A stretch of 64,000 bases of DNA from Naegleria lovaniensis (lineage: Eukaryota > Heterolobosea > Eutetramitea > Acrasida > Naegleriidae), in contig NW_025407847.1 of the NCBI RefSeq assembly GCF_003324165.1, forward strand, positions 92,219 through 156,218. The letters run 5' to 3'. The notes under the pieces are model-generated. The model saw only the letters and a program-made list of their open reading frames with translations, searched no databases and was not told the DNA's origin. A program made the translations under genes and the position numbers. This document shows, in pieces, positions 45,956 through 53,789 of the stretch (position 1 is its first letter; each line of letters opens with the position of its first letter).

Positions 45956-46148
45956 GGTCTTAACGCGTTGGTGCAAATTTTCCTGGCGGCGGATAAAATA
46001 GTTTTTAATTTTGCAGAGAGTACTCTCCCAATTCTCCTCTTCAATTATTGTACGATTGTGATCCAGTTTGTTGAAAACATCGGCTTTGAAACGTGTAATC
46101 AATGTGAGTAGTGTGATTGTTATGAACGTAGTAACCTTGATCAAAAAA

Positions 46149-47351
46149 ATGTCTCTTTGTGGTCTTGTCACTCGGACGCTAATTTCTATTGTGGCAGTAG
46201 TCGTTCTCTATTATCAATTGAATTCAATGAGAAATGTTGTTCATGTGAACGATGTCTTTAAAAATCCAACTTCGGAAAATACACACAATTATCAAATATT
46301 TCCAAGAAAATTAATTAAAAGTAATGACATTATGATGGATGTGGTTGTGTTGGAAAAGTCAACAACAACAACACGTGCAAATACTTCAGACAGCAACACT
46401 AAAAATCCACTCGTTCTGTTCTTACATGGATTTCCACAAACAGCTACAACCTCCTGGTACTTCCAACTCTTATATTTCATGAACAATGATTATAAATTTG
46501 GAGGTCAATCCTATACAGTCATGGCTCCTGATCTTCGTGGATATAATGGTACAGAGAAACCAGATGTCAATAATTTGGCAAATTACGATATTGGTGAATT
46601 TGTTCATGATGTCAAAGGTCTCATTGATGGTTATTATGGAAACAATGAAGCTCACAATAGAAAAGCTGTCGTCGTAGCTCATGATTGGGGTGCAGTAATT
46701 GCTTGGGCACTTGCTTCTACGTATCCACAAGTGGTTGAAAAGTTAATTATTCTCAATGTACCTCATCCTAGTACTCTCACAAAAACGATAACCACATTGC
46801 CTGTGAATAGAATTTTTGCACAATTGAGAAAGAGTTGGTACATCTTCTTTATGCAATTAGGATTCTCCATTCCAGAAGAGTATTTTTCAAGAGAAGGATT
46901 TAAGAAATTGTCATTTGCTTTTGCTTCTCTGGCAAAACAAAATATTCTCTCGATTGAGGATTATCATTACATTGTCAGTGCTTGGTCCCAACCAAACTGT
47001 TTACAAGGAATGATTGCATATTATAGAGGTTTTCTTACAGGAAAGGTTTCAAATTATTTGAAAATGAAATTGTTTGGAATGAAAGATCAAAGAAGATATC
47101 CAATGGTAGGCAATACTATGGATGGTCCTCTCGAAAATCAAACTGTGAAAGTACCAACATTGATCTTGTGGGGAAAGGATGATATTGCACTTATTGAAGA
47201 AACTGCTGATTTATCATTCAAGTACTTTGTAGACGAGAGTGTCAAGTCCAAATCAAAATTACAAAAATTCGATGCAGGTCACTTTGTCATGTTGGAGATT
47301 CCAAACAAAATTAATGAGGAAATTGAGAAATTTATTAGTAACCGTGATTAA
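46149..47351 (+). CDS. Membrane-anchored alpha/beta hydrolase, epoxide-hydrolase-like
   Basis: 400 residues from the ATG at 46149, which has seven adenines before it; 46122 is an alternative start. A single N-terminal hydrophobic segment (TLISIVAVVVLYYQL) suggests a type II anchor, as in animal EPHX3/EPHX4. The fold is canonical: oxyanion motif LFLHGFPQ, DLRGYNGTEKPDV, nucleophile elbow VVAHDWGAVIAWALA with Asp as nucleophile (as in epoxide hydrolases, not Ser), the acid-side strand PTLILWGKDDIALIEE and the catalytic His in DAGHFVMLEIP. The D-D/E-H triad therefore looks complete. Likely substrate: epoxides or a related hydrophobic ester; unknown. Confidence 0.88.
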   Translation: MSLCGLVTRTLISIVAVVVLYYQLNSMRNVVHVNDVFKNPTSENTHNYQIFPRKLIKSNDIMMDVVVLEKSTTTTRANTSDSNTKNPLVLFLHGFPQTATTSWYFQLLYFMNNDYKFGGQSYTVMAPDLRGYNGTEKPDVNNLANYDIGEFVHDVKGLIDGYYGNNEAHNRKAVVVAHDWGAVIAWALASTYPQVVEKLIILNVPHPSTLTKTITTLPVNRIFAQLRKSWYIFFMQLGFSIPEEYFSREGFKKLSFAFASLAKQNILSIEDYHYIVSAWSQPNCLQGMIAYYRGFLTGKVSNYLKMKLFGMKDQRRYPMVGNTMDGPLENQTVKVPTLILWGKDDIALIEETADLSFKYFVDESVKSKSKLQKFDAGHFVMLEIPNKINEEIEKFISNRD

Positions 47352-47616: not shown

Positions 47617-50600
47617 ATGATTATTCCACGTTGGAAGTTACCAAAGGTTGCTGGCTCCACATGCAAACAGACCCGTTCATCTTCCACATCATCCTCATCA
47701 CACAGATACGTATGGACACATTCTTCAATCATATCTTTCCTTGCTGTGGTCATCATGTTTAGTCTTTTGTGTGTCCAACAAGTCGATAACACCTCCTCTT
47801 CATCTTCCTCTTGTACAATATTCTCAGCAGTACATGCTTCAACCATTAAATCTTTCCAACCTCCGCAATATACAGTGTCCACAGTTATTAGAGGACACGG
47901 AATGGATGGTTACAATGCTTTGACAGCTGGTGTCGGTTTAGTGAGCTCTGTGCTCACACTCAATTATCAAGGCAATTATCATGCGGTATTCACAGACAGC
48001 ACCACAGGTCGAGTTCGAAGACTTAATCTTGGACTCGCAACTCCTCAGATCTCAACCGTAGCAGGAACAGGTTTAGGTGTTTTGAAAGGCGAACTTGCTC
48101 CACTTGTATCTCCACGGCCTGGATACAGATCTAACGACACATGGTTGCAATCACCAAAAGGAGCATCTTATGACTCGAAAACTGATGTAATGGTTGTGGT
48201 TGATTCATCTCTTCATAAAGTCTTTCAGGTGAATATCACGACAGGTGTCTTGACGACTTTGGTAGGAACTGGTAATACAACTTTTAATGATAACAATTTT
48301 ATTGGAAATGAAGTGAATCTCAATGCTCCACTCTCAGTAGCACTTTCAAAAACAAGAAATGAAATGTTCATTGCAGGTAAGTTTCATTTCAACCTCACTT
48401 TCAAGAGCATGATGCATTTGTTGACCAAATGAATATGGATACAGATACTGGAAATCACAGAATATTGAAATACATGTTCAGTACTGGAGAAACCACAACT
48501 GTGGGTGGAAATGGTACTGCAGGTTTCGCAGGAGATGGCAACAATATGGTGTTTGCTCTTTTCAATTCTCCATCATTCATATTACCAACCTCATCAGGTG
48601 TTACGTTCGTCTCAGACACGAAGAATCATCGAGTGAGAAGAATTACTGCCAGTGGAACCATTACAACCATTGCAGGAAGTGCTCAACGTGGCTATTGTAA
48701 GTATTCATACTGATTATTGTTGTTTTCATAGTTCTGGATAATATTCTTCTTGTAACATTCCATGTGAAGGTGGTGATGGAGGATTGGCAACATTCGCTTG
48801 CTTGAACACCCCTCTTGGACTTGGTCTCTCCCCTGATGGATCTGCTTTAATGATCGCTGACTCGTTGAATCATGTCATTCGACAAGTGAATCTGACCTCT
48901 GGAGTGATTACAACTGTGGCTGGAAATTCCACTCAAGGATTTTGTGGTGACGAAGGAAATGCCTTAAAAGCCTGTTTCAACACACCCTCAGGAGTGGATT
49001 ATGCAGGAAACGACCTGATCATTGCCGATCAAAACAACAAACGTCTTCGTAAAGTCTCCTACATGACTGGACAGCCAATCCTTTCCACTGTTGCAGGTTG
49101 GGGAAGTGAAATTCCTTCTGCACAAGTCGAAACTCCAAGTTGGTCCTCAAATTTGTTATATCCTGTGAGTGTGAGTGCAAGCAATGATGCGCTCGTGGTT
49201 GCAGAATATTATGCGAATCGTATTCGAAAAGTTTCAAAATCCAATGGAATGGTCTCTTCGATTGCAGGTACGCTCGGCGAAGCTGGTTTCAGTGGTGAGG
49301 ATAGTGATGCTAAACTTGCTTTACTCAATCATCCTTCGAGTGTAGCCGTAACCATGGATGGATCTGTACTGGTGGCAGATACCAACAACACTCGTGTGAG
49401 AATGATTGATTCTAATGGAATGATCAAAACTGTGGTTGGAAATGTGACTTCTGACGGAGATGGTGCTTCTGCCATTCGTGCCTATTTATCCCTTCCCTTA
49501 AAAGTGGTTTACCATGCCGCAACTGATGAACTGTATCTGACAGATTCCATGCATCATCGAATTCGAAAAATCGATTCCACTGGCATGATTCAAACAGTAG
49601 CTGGAACTGGTGTTCAGGGATATAATGGAGACCAACTCAATGCAACATCGACACAACTCGTTGTTCCATTTTCGATAGCTTTAACTCCTGAACGAGAAAT
49701 ATACATTGCTGATACAGGAAATTTTCGAATTCGAAAAGTATTTTTGAATGGAACTACAAGCATCATTGCAGGAGGAGGAGTCAGCACCTCTGAAGGTGCT
49801 AAAGCAACTTCAACCTTTATTTCAGTAGTGTATGACATTGCATATGACAGCAAGACTCAAACTTTGTATTATACGGATGGCAATAAGCATGGTGTCAGAA
49901 AGATTGATCAAAATGGACTTGTATGGACAGTAGCTGGTAAGTGTTAAATGGTCTATTGTCATGTTGACAAATAACATGAATGACGAATCATTTGTGAAAT
50001 ATACAGGAAACGGTCAAATTGGAAATTCTGGTGATGGAGGAAGTGCCTTATTGGCTTCTTTCAATAACCCACTTTCTATTGCATTGTCCAATTCTGGTGA
50101 GTTGTATATCGTAGGTATGTACATGTTATTTTCATGCATCCTGACACTTTTCTAGACGGAGGTGCACGAGTCGTGCGAAAAGTTCTCACCAACGGCACTG
50201 TTGTAAGAGTGGCTGGCGGTGGCTCTCAAGCGGTTGGTCGTAATCCAGTCCTTGCCCTTAATGCCTCTCTTGACAACCCTACCCGCATCCTTCTCGCATC
50301 GAACGGTGAATTTTACATTGGCGATCAATGCAATGTCAAGAAAGTGGATACCAATGGATACATTTCCATCGTGGTAGGTACCTCTTCAGACTGTGTGTAC
50401 AATGGAGATGGACCAGTATCGGAAAGAACTCTTTCGAGTGTGAATGGACTTTCCTTTTCTCGGTCTGAGGATGAACTCTTTCTTTCGGATGGAGCTGATG
50501 GCCGTATTCGAAAAATTTCAAATGGATCGATGAGTACAGTGGCTGGAGGAATTGGAGATACAGGTCTCGCTGTGAATGCCAAGACTTCTCCGTTGCATGT

Positions 50601-52032
50601 GTTTGCTTCATCGAAGGATCGTTCGTTTTATATTACAGATGTATTGGAATCATCAGTTCGAAAAGTTTCCGTGGATGGCACGATTGTAACCGTTCCTGGA
50701 ACCAGTCAAGTCTTTCTACTTCCCAATGCTTCAACCAAAGGAGAATCTCGTTTGTATCCTACTCAGACATTTGTGAATGAGGTCACTGGAGATTTGTACA
50801 TGACCTTTAAATATCGACATGTCATTAAGAAAGTGACACGTTCTGGAGTGTCCTCGATTATTGCTGGACAGTTGGACACTCCTGGATCGGAAGGTGATGG
50901 ATCTCTAGCCATTCGTGCGCTCCTTAATCAACCCACTGCGATCATTGTCTCTCCAAAGGGAAATATCTATTTTTCAGATGCTGCAAATCATCGAGTAAGA
51001 AAAATTGACACGAATGGAATCATTACTACCGTTGCAGGTGTATCCATGAGTGGAGGATTCAACGGTGATGGGTTACTGGGATTGCAATCTCTCTTGGACA
51101 CCCCGAATGGTCTCTTTTTATCTCAAGAGAGTGGTGAATTATTAGTATGTGACTCCAACAATCATCGTGTTCGTAAATTGAGTCCTTTCTGTTCATCGCC
51201 ATACACGTGGAGCCCATCTTTTGAGAGTTGTCTACAATGTCAAGATGGATGGATTGGTATCGATTGTAACATTCCTTTTTGTCCTACCTCTGTTCAACAA
51301 TCCAATACAACTAATTCACCATTAGGATGTACCAATGATTACCAAGTCATTTCAGAAGTCAAGACAGAAGTGGTCCAAAATTTAACCTTAATTAATTCCA
51401 AGAATGTGACTTTTACCAATTTCACCTCTGTGAAAGTTTCCTTACCTCCAACCATGTTGAAAGAATTAGTGTCGTTAGGTCTTAATGAAACTTCCCAAGT
51501 GACCTTATTGACCTCTCTCTATGAACCATCCAAGAATGAGAGTACCAAAAACAGTAATTCTGTGGAAGCACCAGTCGTGAGTGCAGTTCTTACTGTGTCC
51601 TTGTATGACTCTCGTGGACAAACCATTCCTATTCGAAATTTGGAAAATCCCATCTTGTTGCATTTTGAAGATATTCGTTTCATACTTCAAGAAAGGAATT
51701 CACTCAATGTGAGTTGTGTGTATTTTGATGATTCATCAAATTCTTGGAAAAACGATGGAGTGGAATCTGTACTGAATTCAGTGGTGCAACAAGAAAACAA
51801 TGTCACTCTCTCCATAACTTGTAAAACCTATCACCTGACTTCTTTTGCAGTCATTGATAAGAACTTTAAGAAGGCAACCACTCAGACCGAGGAACCCAAG
51901 TTTAGTCTCTCCCAAGAAGCATTGATTGGAATTATTGTGGGATCCGTTGGAGGATGTTTGGTACTGTCAGCAGTTTGTTTAATTGTCGTCGTGGTGATTG
52001 CTCTGTACATGCGTACTCGAAATCGAAAATAG
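47617..52032 (+). CDS. Giant NHL-propeller type I membrane protein with a GPS-like motif
   Basis: Five exons: 47617-48376, 48445-48696, 48770-49936, 50007-50114, 50156-52032 (all introns phase 1, 41-73 nt), giving 1387 residues. A hydrophobic stretch at residues 35-52 (SSIISFLAVVIMFSLLCV) acts as signal peptide or anchor. About 17 NHL-type blades follow, each with a TVAGTG-like turn, a GDGG/GFxGD turn and an IADxxNHRIRKV-like strand. One EGF-like segment (CLQCQDGWIGIDCNIPFC) leads to an N-glycosylation-rich domain. That domain ends in SCVYFDDSSNSWKNDGV ... SITCKTYHLTSFAVID, which matches the GPS box of GAIN domains, with the HL-T cleavage point at about 1323/1324. One transmembrane helix (GGCLVLSAVCLIVVVVIALY) and a five-residue basic tail close it. 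Likely a surface receptor or adhesin. Confidence 0.9.
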
Positions 52033-52101: not shown

Positions 52102-53229
52102 ATGAAATTACTCACTTTGAACATGTGGCTCATCAATTCACTCTCCTTCAAAAAATCTCCTCCACCATTTAAGAAGGAACGAACGGAAGGATTTCTAAAA
52201 CATTTAGCGAATGGTTTTGATGAATTTGAAAATTGTATTTCAGAAGAGGAAATCTTGATCCAATCTTCAAATGATTCCGAGAGTTGTGATGATCATGCCA
52301 TTTCAACAGACATAGAATCATCGTTTGTACTTGTTGAACGGAAAATTCCGAAAGAAAAGCAACAAAAATCAGACAAGACAAAGGCTCACAAAATGTTTGA
52401 TGTGGTTGTCTTGCAAGAGGTTTTTAGATATGGAAATACTTTTTTTGAGTTGTTTGAAAATACATTTCATGAAATGATTGTAAAGAAGGGAACCAATGAA
52501 TTGAATTATCATGTCGCTTTGTCAGATCCTCCATATCCTTTATGTCAAGACTCTGGACTGCTAATTTTGAGCAAATATCCCATCGTATGTTCCAAAAATT
52601 ACGTTTTTCAAAACACCAGTTGGAACGATTATGTGACAGGTAAAGGAGTTCTGTATGCCAAAATCCACAGTCCACACGAGGGTGTTATTCATCTTTTTAC
52701 GCTTCATATGGATGCTCATGACGAAAATATTCGACGAAGCCAAGTGGATGAATTGATAGCATTTATTAGAGATTGCACATATATTTCATACGCAAAAAGA
52801 AAGCATACCAGTTCACATCAACAGAATTTGACAAAACACAATATAGTATTAGCTGGAGATTTTAATATTGACAGTTTAGTGGATTTAGAAATTTATGAAT
52901 ATTTGATGAACGAGCTCAATTCAAAAATTTGTAAAAACTACATTCAAGATTGTGAATTCAAAGATATTTTCGGGAGTGATCTTACAAAGCATCCAAAAAC
53001 TCACAGGAATATGTGTTTGGATCACATCATTTACACTGTGCCCACTAGTTCCAATGATTTGATTTTCAATCCATTTGCTTCTCGAGGGCGCAAAAAGTCT
53101 TCAAGAGAGCCAAACACAGTGGAATCAACACAAACTTATCATATTGTAGATTGGAATTGCGATATTGGGAATGATGAAAAGTATCCCATATCTGACCACT
53201 TTGGAATTGCTACTGACCTCAAATTGTGA
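52102..53229 (+). CDS. Endonuclease/exonuclease/phosphatase-fold enzyme, neutral sphingomyelinase-like
   Basis: 375 residues, single exon. DNase I-fold catalytic motifs in order: LTLNMW at the N-terminus, VVLQEVF (metal-binding Glu), DSGLLILSKYPI, GKGVLYAKIH with LFTLHMDA, LAGDFNID (D-x-N), CLDHIIY and the terminal SDHFGIATDL (catalytic Asp-His). The GKGVL...LHMDA pattern is typical of neutral sphingomyelinases rather than AP endonucleases. A 75-residue acidic/Ser-rich insertion separates the first two motifs. No signal peptide or membrane segment is visible. Substrate is inferred: sphingomyelin or an inositol/other phosphodiester. It follows the NHL protein by 69 bp on the same strand. Confidence 0.85.
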   Translation: MKLLTLNMWLINSLSFKKSPPPFKKERTEGFLKHLANGFDEFENCISEEEILIQSSNDSESCDDHAISTDIESSFVLVERKIPKEKQQKSDKTKAHKMFDVVVLQEVFRYGNTFFELFENTFHEMIVKKGTNELNYHVALSDPPYPLCQDSGLLILSKYPIVCSKNYVFQNTSWNDYVTGKGVLYAKIHSPHEGVIHLFTLHMDAHDENIRRSQVDELIAFIRDCTYISYAKRKHTSSHQQNLTKHNIVLAGDFNIDSLVDLEIYEYLMNELNSKICKNYIQDCEFKDIFGSDLTKHPKTHRNMCLDHIIYTVPTSSNDLIFNPFASRGRKKSSREPNTVESTQTYHIVDWNCDIGNDEKYPISDHFGIATDLKL

Positions 53230-53429: not shown

Positions 53430-53789
53430 TTAAAGAACTCCCTTGTACTTCATATCAGATCCCTTAATATGGCTTACCAACCATTGCTTGATGAATTGAA
53501 TTTCACCATCTCCAACACTCTTCAAACCCAAAGCATCTTGAACAAACTTATCATGAGTCTCCTTGTGAGAAGCAGAATCAGAGAAATTCACCTTGGCAAA
53601 CAAGTCCTCCTCTGCCTTGAAATGAACAACAACATAATCCAACAATTCCTTCAATGCAGAAGCACTGGATCGATTGGCATCCAAAGCATTGATGAGAGCA
53701 AAGAGCTTCTTGTGTTGGTCATTCAATTCATTGTTACCCACGCAGAAAGTAGAGTCCCATTGGAATGGTGATGGAATAGTAGTGGCCAT
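53430..53789 (-). CDS. Hemerythrin
   Basis: Non-haem di-iron oxygen-binding protein. 119 residues, single exon. All seven iron ligands expected from the family are present: His26 (NDQHKKLF), His56 and Glu60 (VVVHFKAEEDLF), His75 and His79 (SHKETHDKF), His107 and Asp112 (VSHIKGSDMKY). Trp11 in FQWDSTFCVGN is also typical. Length matches annelid/sipunculid and bacterial single-domain hemerythrins. No targeting peptide, so probably cytosolic; oxygen or iron storage and sensing are the usual proposals. Confidence 0.97.
   Translation of the reverse strand: MATTIPSPFQWDSTFCVGNNELNDQHKKLFALINALDANRSSASALKELLDYVVVHFKAEEDLFAKVNFSDSASHKETHDKFVQDALGLKSVGDGEIQFIKQWLVSHIKGSDMKYKGVL

Follow-up and report, generated by a model that had tools for sequence, protein, structure and literature searches.

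The window (the whole stretch of Naegleria lovaniensis DNA that was analysed, 64,000 nucleotides with a GC content of 37.7%) corresponds to C26:92219-156218 of an assembly that totals 30.69 Mb and comprises 97 contigs. The gene described here has five exons (47617-48376, 48445-48696, 48770-49936, 50007-50114 and 50156-52032) separated by GT-AG introns of 68, 73, 70 and 41 bases, and its spliced translation is a reading frame of 1387 residues free of internal stops. On the same strand it is flanked by genes for an alpha/beta hydrolase (46068-47348) and for a protein of the endonuclease/exonuclease/phosphatase family (52102-53226); a hemerythrin-domain protein is encoded further along on the opposite strand (53433-53789). 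The features of the gene are listed in Table 1.

Table 1. Positions in the window of the features of the gene and its product.
Feature	Position	Strand	Basis
Whole gene, NHL single-pass protein with GPS box, 1387 residues	47617..52032	+	spliced translation
N-terminal hydrophobic segment, residues 38-56	47728..47784	+	hydropathy
NHL-repeat ectodomain (spliced, approximate bounds)	47884..51198	+	Pfam NHL, TEN_NHL
Cys-rich EGF-like segment linking NHL part and stalk	51148..51282	+	EGF_TEN match under cut-off
Candidate upstream strands of GAIN subdomain B	51400..51714	+	family profile aligns with ADGRG6
GPS box	51712..51855	+	PF01825 over cut-off
Gly1297 kept, Val1298 at Cys2 position	51757..51762	+	family alignment
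Cys1318 (Cys3) kept, Thr1320 at Cys4 position	51820..51828	+	family alignment
H-L-T triad	51832..51840	+	H-L-[T/S] in 13 of 13 family rows
TSFAVIDKNFK, putative strand at Stachel position	51838..51870	+	kept in most family members
Single transmembrane helix (approximate bounds)	51919..52011	+	hydropathy peak at residues 1363-1381
Basic cytoplasmic tail of six residues, and stop	52012..52032	+	translation, hydropathy

Two hydrophobic segments were found in the protein at the threshold used, at residues 38-56 and 1363-1381. The first is probably a signal sequence behind a long n-region. The second is the only one after the GPS box and is followed by just six residues, in agreement with the original prediction, made from the DNA letters alone, of a single transmembrane helix behind the motif. 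NHL and TEN_NHL both exceeded their Pfam cut-offs in exons 3 and 5; matches under the cut-off were seen for NHL in exon 2 and for TEN_NHL in exon 1. The Cys-rich segment is of a type that matches EGF-like families over cut-off in several paralogues. About 130 residues of stalk lie ahead of the box, and the distance from the triad to the helix is ~26-40 residues, depending on where the helix is taken to start. Eight N-glycosylation sequons are present from residue 1146 onward. TEN_NHL is shared with the teneurins, and membership of that family was rejected, as Pfam listed none of the later teneurin domains for the exons of the window. The genome is rich in NHL-repeat proteins, with 140 TEN_NHL (PF25021) matches, many of them several per gene.

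The original prediction had placed a GPS-like motif next to the membrane and proposed a search with the PF01825 profile, whose curated cut-off is 22.5 bits. The motif proved to be a true GPS box by that profile: it exceeded the cut-off in the genome-wide Pfam search (28.6 bits, E 7.3e-5 at 51712-51855), in the 624-residue exon frame (24.5 bits) and as an isolated box of 52 residues (29.6 bits, E 1e-6). Its residues are C1283, Y1285, W1293, G1297, V1298, C1318, T1320, H1322-L1323-T1324 and F1326, which bears out the statement that the HLTSFAV core is kept together with the first Cys, the Trp and the Gly.

The genome-wide search yielded 20 GPS matches, each above the Pfam cut-off; the 14 control genomes gave no match. 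When the window stalk was used as the query, 23 matches were obtained in the genome and eight further GPS proteins were taken from them; a match restricted to the helix (C54:120808) was left out. Beyond what had been predicted, the window protein belongs to a group of 14 or more single-pass paralogues, of which three have a kinase domain. These exist beside 14 multi-pass GPS proteins, and the two groups together make up a set of at least 28. H-X-T or H-X-S is present in all 28 loci; the pattern used required H[LT][ST] and matched every locus given, none being dropped, and triad-less proteins outside this set could not appear in the count. Six of the 14 single-pass loci had been recovered by the genome-wide Pfam search and eight had been missed.

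In the multi-pass set (L009-L016, L019-L021, L024, L025 and L027) five to eight hydrophobic segments follow the GPS in 13 of 14 proteins, the frame of L019 ending before them, and the boxes contain four Cys and H-T-T. Five of these proteins were scanned for an RGS domain, which was over cut-off in L010, L021 and L024, under cut-off in L009 and unlisted in L016. A REJ match over cut-off was also seen in L021. The single-pass set consists of the window protein, L017, L018, L022, L023, L026 and L028-L035. A helix was seen in 13 of these 14 loci; the frame of L034 ends just past the box. That frame (C15:714200-715300) reads HLTSFGVVDINGFG and meets a stop soon after the box, owing either to an intron or to a defective copy. 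L030, almost the same as L029, was excluded from alignments, leaving 13 single-pass rows.

A profile built from the 14 multi-pass boxes scored 27.9 bits against the window box, the best of 1300 shuffles reaching 11.8 bits, and it scored 17.3 to 36.2 bits against the 13 single-pass boxes, all above the best of the 1300 shuffles. Bare single-pass boxes matched GPS in Pfam at E up to 0.1 in 13 of 13 cases. With longer frames GPS was listed (E up to 0.01) in only two of eight box-holding single-pass frames, L026 (21.7 bits) and L030 (18.6 bits), both under cut-off; the longer frame of L035 gave 13.1 bits (E 0.15). Since L010, L021 and L022 were over cut-off in the genome search and yet unlisted in their longer frames, this is due in part to filters for long Cys-rich frames. 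The matches of all 13 boxes to Pfam, together with the scores of the multi-pass profile against 1300 shuffles, rule out a chance motif as the source of the box, and the homology of the window box to GPS, judged from sequence, is regarded as firm.

A tree of the GPS proteins placed the single-pass and multi-pass sets on opposite sides of one branch (support 98/96 with all columns). Without four of the trait columns the support for this branch was 76/88 and it was present in 78% of 200 bootstrap trees; many of the end branches are long. Because the split is weaker without these columns, this tree makes it likely, though short of settled, that the single-pass class arose once.

Of the 14 single-pass loci, 11 could be assigned NHL repeats, either within the same frame or in one next to it. 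They were listed by Pfam for the window protein, L018, L023, L028 and L030. Near L031-L034 there are TEN_NHL matches in the same orientation, NHL being unlisted in the Pfam scan of the short frames of L032-L034 themselves. L029 was assigned NHL by its near identity to L030, and L035 has NHL and EGF repeats in an upstream frame (L037), presumably joined by splicing. EGF repeats without a listed NHL match characterize L017 and L022, and neither was listed by Pfam for L026. Protein kinase domains follow the helix in three single-pass proteins: in L035 (with L037 and L038, C7:238500-246000) at 153.8 bits in the same frame, in L022 (C2:994k) at 145.5 bits in the next frame, with a presumed splice, and in L026 (C16:529k) at 105.7 bits. 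In the non-kinase members with a visible helix the tails are ~6-19 residues long. The helix and a juxtamembrane stretch of the DxNFKKA type are kept in most of the single-pass members.

The four GPS cysteines (Cys1 to Cys4) are highly conserved in animals. In our alignment all 27 rows (13 single-pass and 14 multi-pass) retain Cys1 and Cys3, and Cys2 and Cys4 are both Cys in every multi-pass row. The single-pass rows have V, L, I or M in the Cys2 column and T throughout the Cys4 column, so that the replacement of Cys2 and Cys4 by Val and Thr, already pointed out for the window protein (V1298, T1320), is a paired loss found in all 13 distinct members. We presume the disulfides to be Cys1-Cys3 and Cys2-Cys4, a pairing with which the loss of Cys2 together with Cys4 agrees. 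Both GAIN-B disulfides are described as having one end at C-x-C (PMC13197933). The four cysteines and two disulfides that serve as a criterion for GAIN/GPS are thus incomplete in the single-pass rows; they are not a condition of the PF01825 family.

Although identity to the window protein is no more than 24-42% in the single-pass rows, 13 of the 246 columns with at least seven residues are unchanged, and these include the His, the Leu, the Tyr at Cys1+2, the Trp, the Gly, Cys1, Cys3 and the Thr at Cys4. At the nucleophile position 12 rows have Thr and one has Ser. The published cleavage set comprises a His base and a Ser/Thr nucleophile in H-X-S/T, an aromatic residue (F803) that sets the orientation of the His, and a bond with the backbone at Gly-Cys (PMC13062082). 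F803 was equated in this analysis with the Cys1+2 position, and the corresponding Y1285 of the window protein is invariant in the 13 rows, as is G1297, the Gly before Cys2. According to the same source, full-length L1 with F803Y or F803W still cleaves, and the purified ectodomain is then slow (PMC13062082). All the determinants named in that source are therefore present in the window protein except the Cys side chain. The bond predicted to be cut, Leu1323-Thr1324, falls between bases 51837 and 51838; single-pass proteins have Leu on its N-terminal side, and multi-pass proteins have Thr there.

To assess the fold around the box, a profile of 13 family stalks was used, and it matched the GAIN domains of ADGRG6 (E 3.7e-5 and 6e-5), ADGRG3 (6.9e-5) and ADGRG1 (4.1e-4). 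The best alignment, that with ADGRG6, spans profile positions 48-218 and begins well upstream of the box. The parts taken separately gave less: against the PDB the best E of the box profile was 0.069, GAIN was not found by the pre-GPS profile at E up to 10, and it was not found there by single-sequence phmmer. With a multi-pass pre-GPS profile the pre-GPS region of the window protein scored 26.8 bits, the best of 1300 shuffles reaching 17.0 bits, a value that four of the 13 single-pass members exceeded and nine did not. The single-pass pre-GPS profile ranked three of five animal GAIN segments above all of 2000 shuffles, 8 and 245 shuffles (the latter for ADGRL3) scoring as high as the remaining two, and the multi-pass profile ranked none of the five above all 2000; this test is biased because the segments were picked as already aligned. 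Overall, the stalk as a whole is likely to be homologous to GAIN-B, on the strength of the joint alignment of stalk and box.

A single-sequence AlphaFold prediction of the stalk alone (window 51340-51879) had a mean pLDDT of 35.4 and is unusable as a model. This, and the finding that the pre-GPS region alone has no relevant match in the PDB, would be expected if the box were a chance motif or belonged to some other fold with a GPS look-alike. We consider such an explanation very improbable in view of the Pfam cut-off passed by the window box, the GPS matches of all 13 boxes and their rank above each of 1300 shuffles. The helical subdomain A is not evident in the sequence of the window protein: only 33 residues separate VKVSLPP at 1188, where the ADGRG6 alignment starts, from the nearest Cys upstream of the box region (C1154), which would leave no room for a full helical bundle.

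Taken together, the sequence features make it reasonably probable that the window protein is a two-chain single-pass receptor of the adhesion type, self-cleaved in the ER, with its NHL ectodomain retained non-covalently on a one-helix stub. In the mechanism that we infer, a compact GAIN-B domain with two cysteines would carry the NHL-repeat ectodomain. Once the protein has entered the ER, Tyr1285 and the backbone following Gly1297 would orient His1322 so that it deprotonates Thr1324. The latter would then attack the peptide bond Leu1323-Thr1324, and the reaction would proceed by an N-O acyl shift and hydrolysis. The ectodomain would remain held through the last beta-strand on a stub of 64 residues comprising this strand, a linker, the helix and the short basic tail, and could be detached when pulled or when a ligand binds. 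Because the tail has six residues, any output would have to come from a partner (perhaps a multi-pass GPS protein), from shedding or from adhesive release. The kinase-bearing paralogues would signal directly.

Three points count against cleavage: the absence of Cys2 and Cys4, the fact that no subdomain A is apparent, and the precedent of ADGRB2, which has H-L-S and hardly cleaves, with a half-life of about 100 days (PMC13062082). The same points would suit a cleavage-dead GAIN-B domain acting as a rigid juxtamembrane stalk, in which the box is kept for folding and not for catalysis. However, such a stalk would not obviously need an invariant His, Leu and aromatic residue, nor a nucleophile that is always Thr or Ser, and we regard it as unlikely, though it is to be taken seriously. 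The H-X-S/T triad itself is absent from ten of 32 human aGPCRs (PMC13062082), in contrast to the 28 loci of this genome, which all have it, as matched with the pattern that required it.

Attachment to one helix is compatible with cleavage in a known case. According to PMC12488864, E2-1TM gave NTF, to an unquantified extent, as did the E2 ectodomain carried by the calnexin helix. The latter construct needed N-glycosylation, for which sequons are also present in the window protein. One helix therefore suffices in this case, although the full 7TM raises cleavage. The same source reports that tethering to the ER membrane promotes GAIN cleavage. On this basis the helix might serve only to bring the domain near the ER membrane for cutting, the NHL ectodomain then leaving the cell as a shed decoy or matrix protein, and the short tails of the non-kinase members would agree with this. 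We judge it a distinctly improbable reading, because the helix and the DxNFKKA-type stretch are kept in most members and the kinase domains of three paralogues argue for a held receptor.

The proposed two-chain receptor has counterparts among proteins of known architecture. SEA-domain receptors (MUC1, dystroglycan) have a self-cleaved juxtamembrane domain and an ectodomain non-covalently attached to one helix; they work like the mechanism proposed here, with a different fold and motif. PKD1-like and sea urchin REJ proteins are multi-pass. They are non-GPCR proteins with a self-cleaving GAIN domain (PMC13197933) and share with the window protein, in which cleavage is predicted, the presence of a GPS/GAIN-type motif outside the GPCRs. 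GAIN autoproteolysis is described for adhesion GPCRs, PKD1-like and REJ proteins (PMC11697300, PMC13197933), and PMC11697300 names PKD1-like proteins as the only GAIN family known besides adhesion GPCRs, which is in keeping with the earlier view that the receptor design at this locus is unusual. The window protein was not assigned to the PKD1-like family, as REJ was unlisted in it at E up to 1 and one hydrophobic segment follows the GPS.

With the adhesion GPCRs (ADGRG6, ADGRG3, ADGRG1 and ADGRL1) the window protein shares the juxtamembrane GPS box, H-L-S/T, the Cys1+2 aromatic residue, the Trp, the Gly, Cys1 and Cys3, and with ADGRG6 a profile match over much of subdomain B. It differs in having one helix instead of seven, an NHL ectodomain, no Cys2 or Cys4 and no evident subdomain A. 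Membership of the adhesion GPCRs was rejected, since the GPS is followed by one hydrophobic segment and a six-residue tail and not by seven helices. In Drosophila, 1TM isoforms of Cirl (Bormann 2025) arise by intron retention from the 7TM gene and pair with 7TM Cirl, as described in PMC13197933; the single-pass proteins reported here form a separate gene family. By analogy with this pairing, and as 14 loci of each class coexist in the genome, the one-helix protein could be a subunit of a seven-pass receptor, paired with a 7TM-RGS GPS protein. We think this improbable; it would be compatible with the two-chain receptor.

Publications describe 7TM-RGS proteins with GPS motifs in N. fowleri (PMC9283941). 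These resemble the multi-pass GPS proteins, some with RGS, that are also present in this genome, and being seven-pass they are unlike the single-pass set; the terms NHL and single transmembrane are absent from the text of PMC9283941. Together with our 14 multi-pass GPS proteins they put in question the statement in PMC12716839 that the GAIN-7TM linkage is restricted to holozoans. No publication on a single-pass GPS/NHL family of Naegleria was found in the literature searched, in which few subscription journals were covered, and NHL is absent from the text of the Naegleria pangenome paper (PMC9928731). A search of GTDB genome contigs with one peptide pattern gave 8 pattern matches and one of viral contigs gave 7, with no relative confirmed among either.

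We tentatively propose, at slightly less than an even chance, a third class of GAIN receptors beside adhesion GPCRs and polycystins. Its members would be single-pass NHL/EGF receptors of a discoban amoeba, some with a cytoplasmic kinase, and would bear a self-cleaving two-cysteine GAIN-B domain. If this is true, the tethered strand controls a helix or a kinase and not a seven-helix core, and cleavage chemistry is separable from GPCR activation. A motif on one helix, sometimes before a kinase, would likewise set cleavage apart from the tethered agonism that acts on a seven-helix domain. The single-pass family would offer a natural two-cysteine GAIN with which to ask which disulfide cleavage needs.

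The near-identical loci L029 (C54:164987-165793) and L030 (C54:44080-44886) lie about 120 kb apart on opposite strands, one of them near the contig end, and the pair represents either a recent duplication or an assembly effect. At another locus (L036 with L040, C46:214400-217200) NHL, an EGF-like part and a helix are followed in the same frame by a stretch that was read by eye as kinase-like; the helix region matches the single-pass family, and no GPS box is present. This GPS-less version suggests that the GAIN-like stalk is a module which these receptors have or lack.
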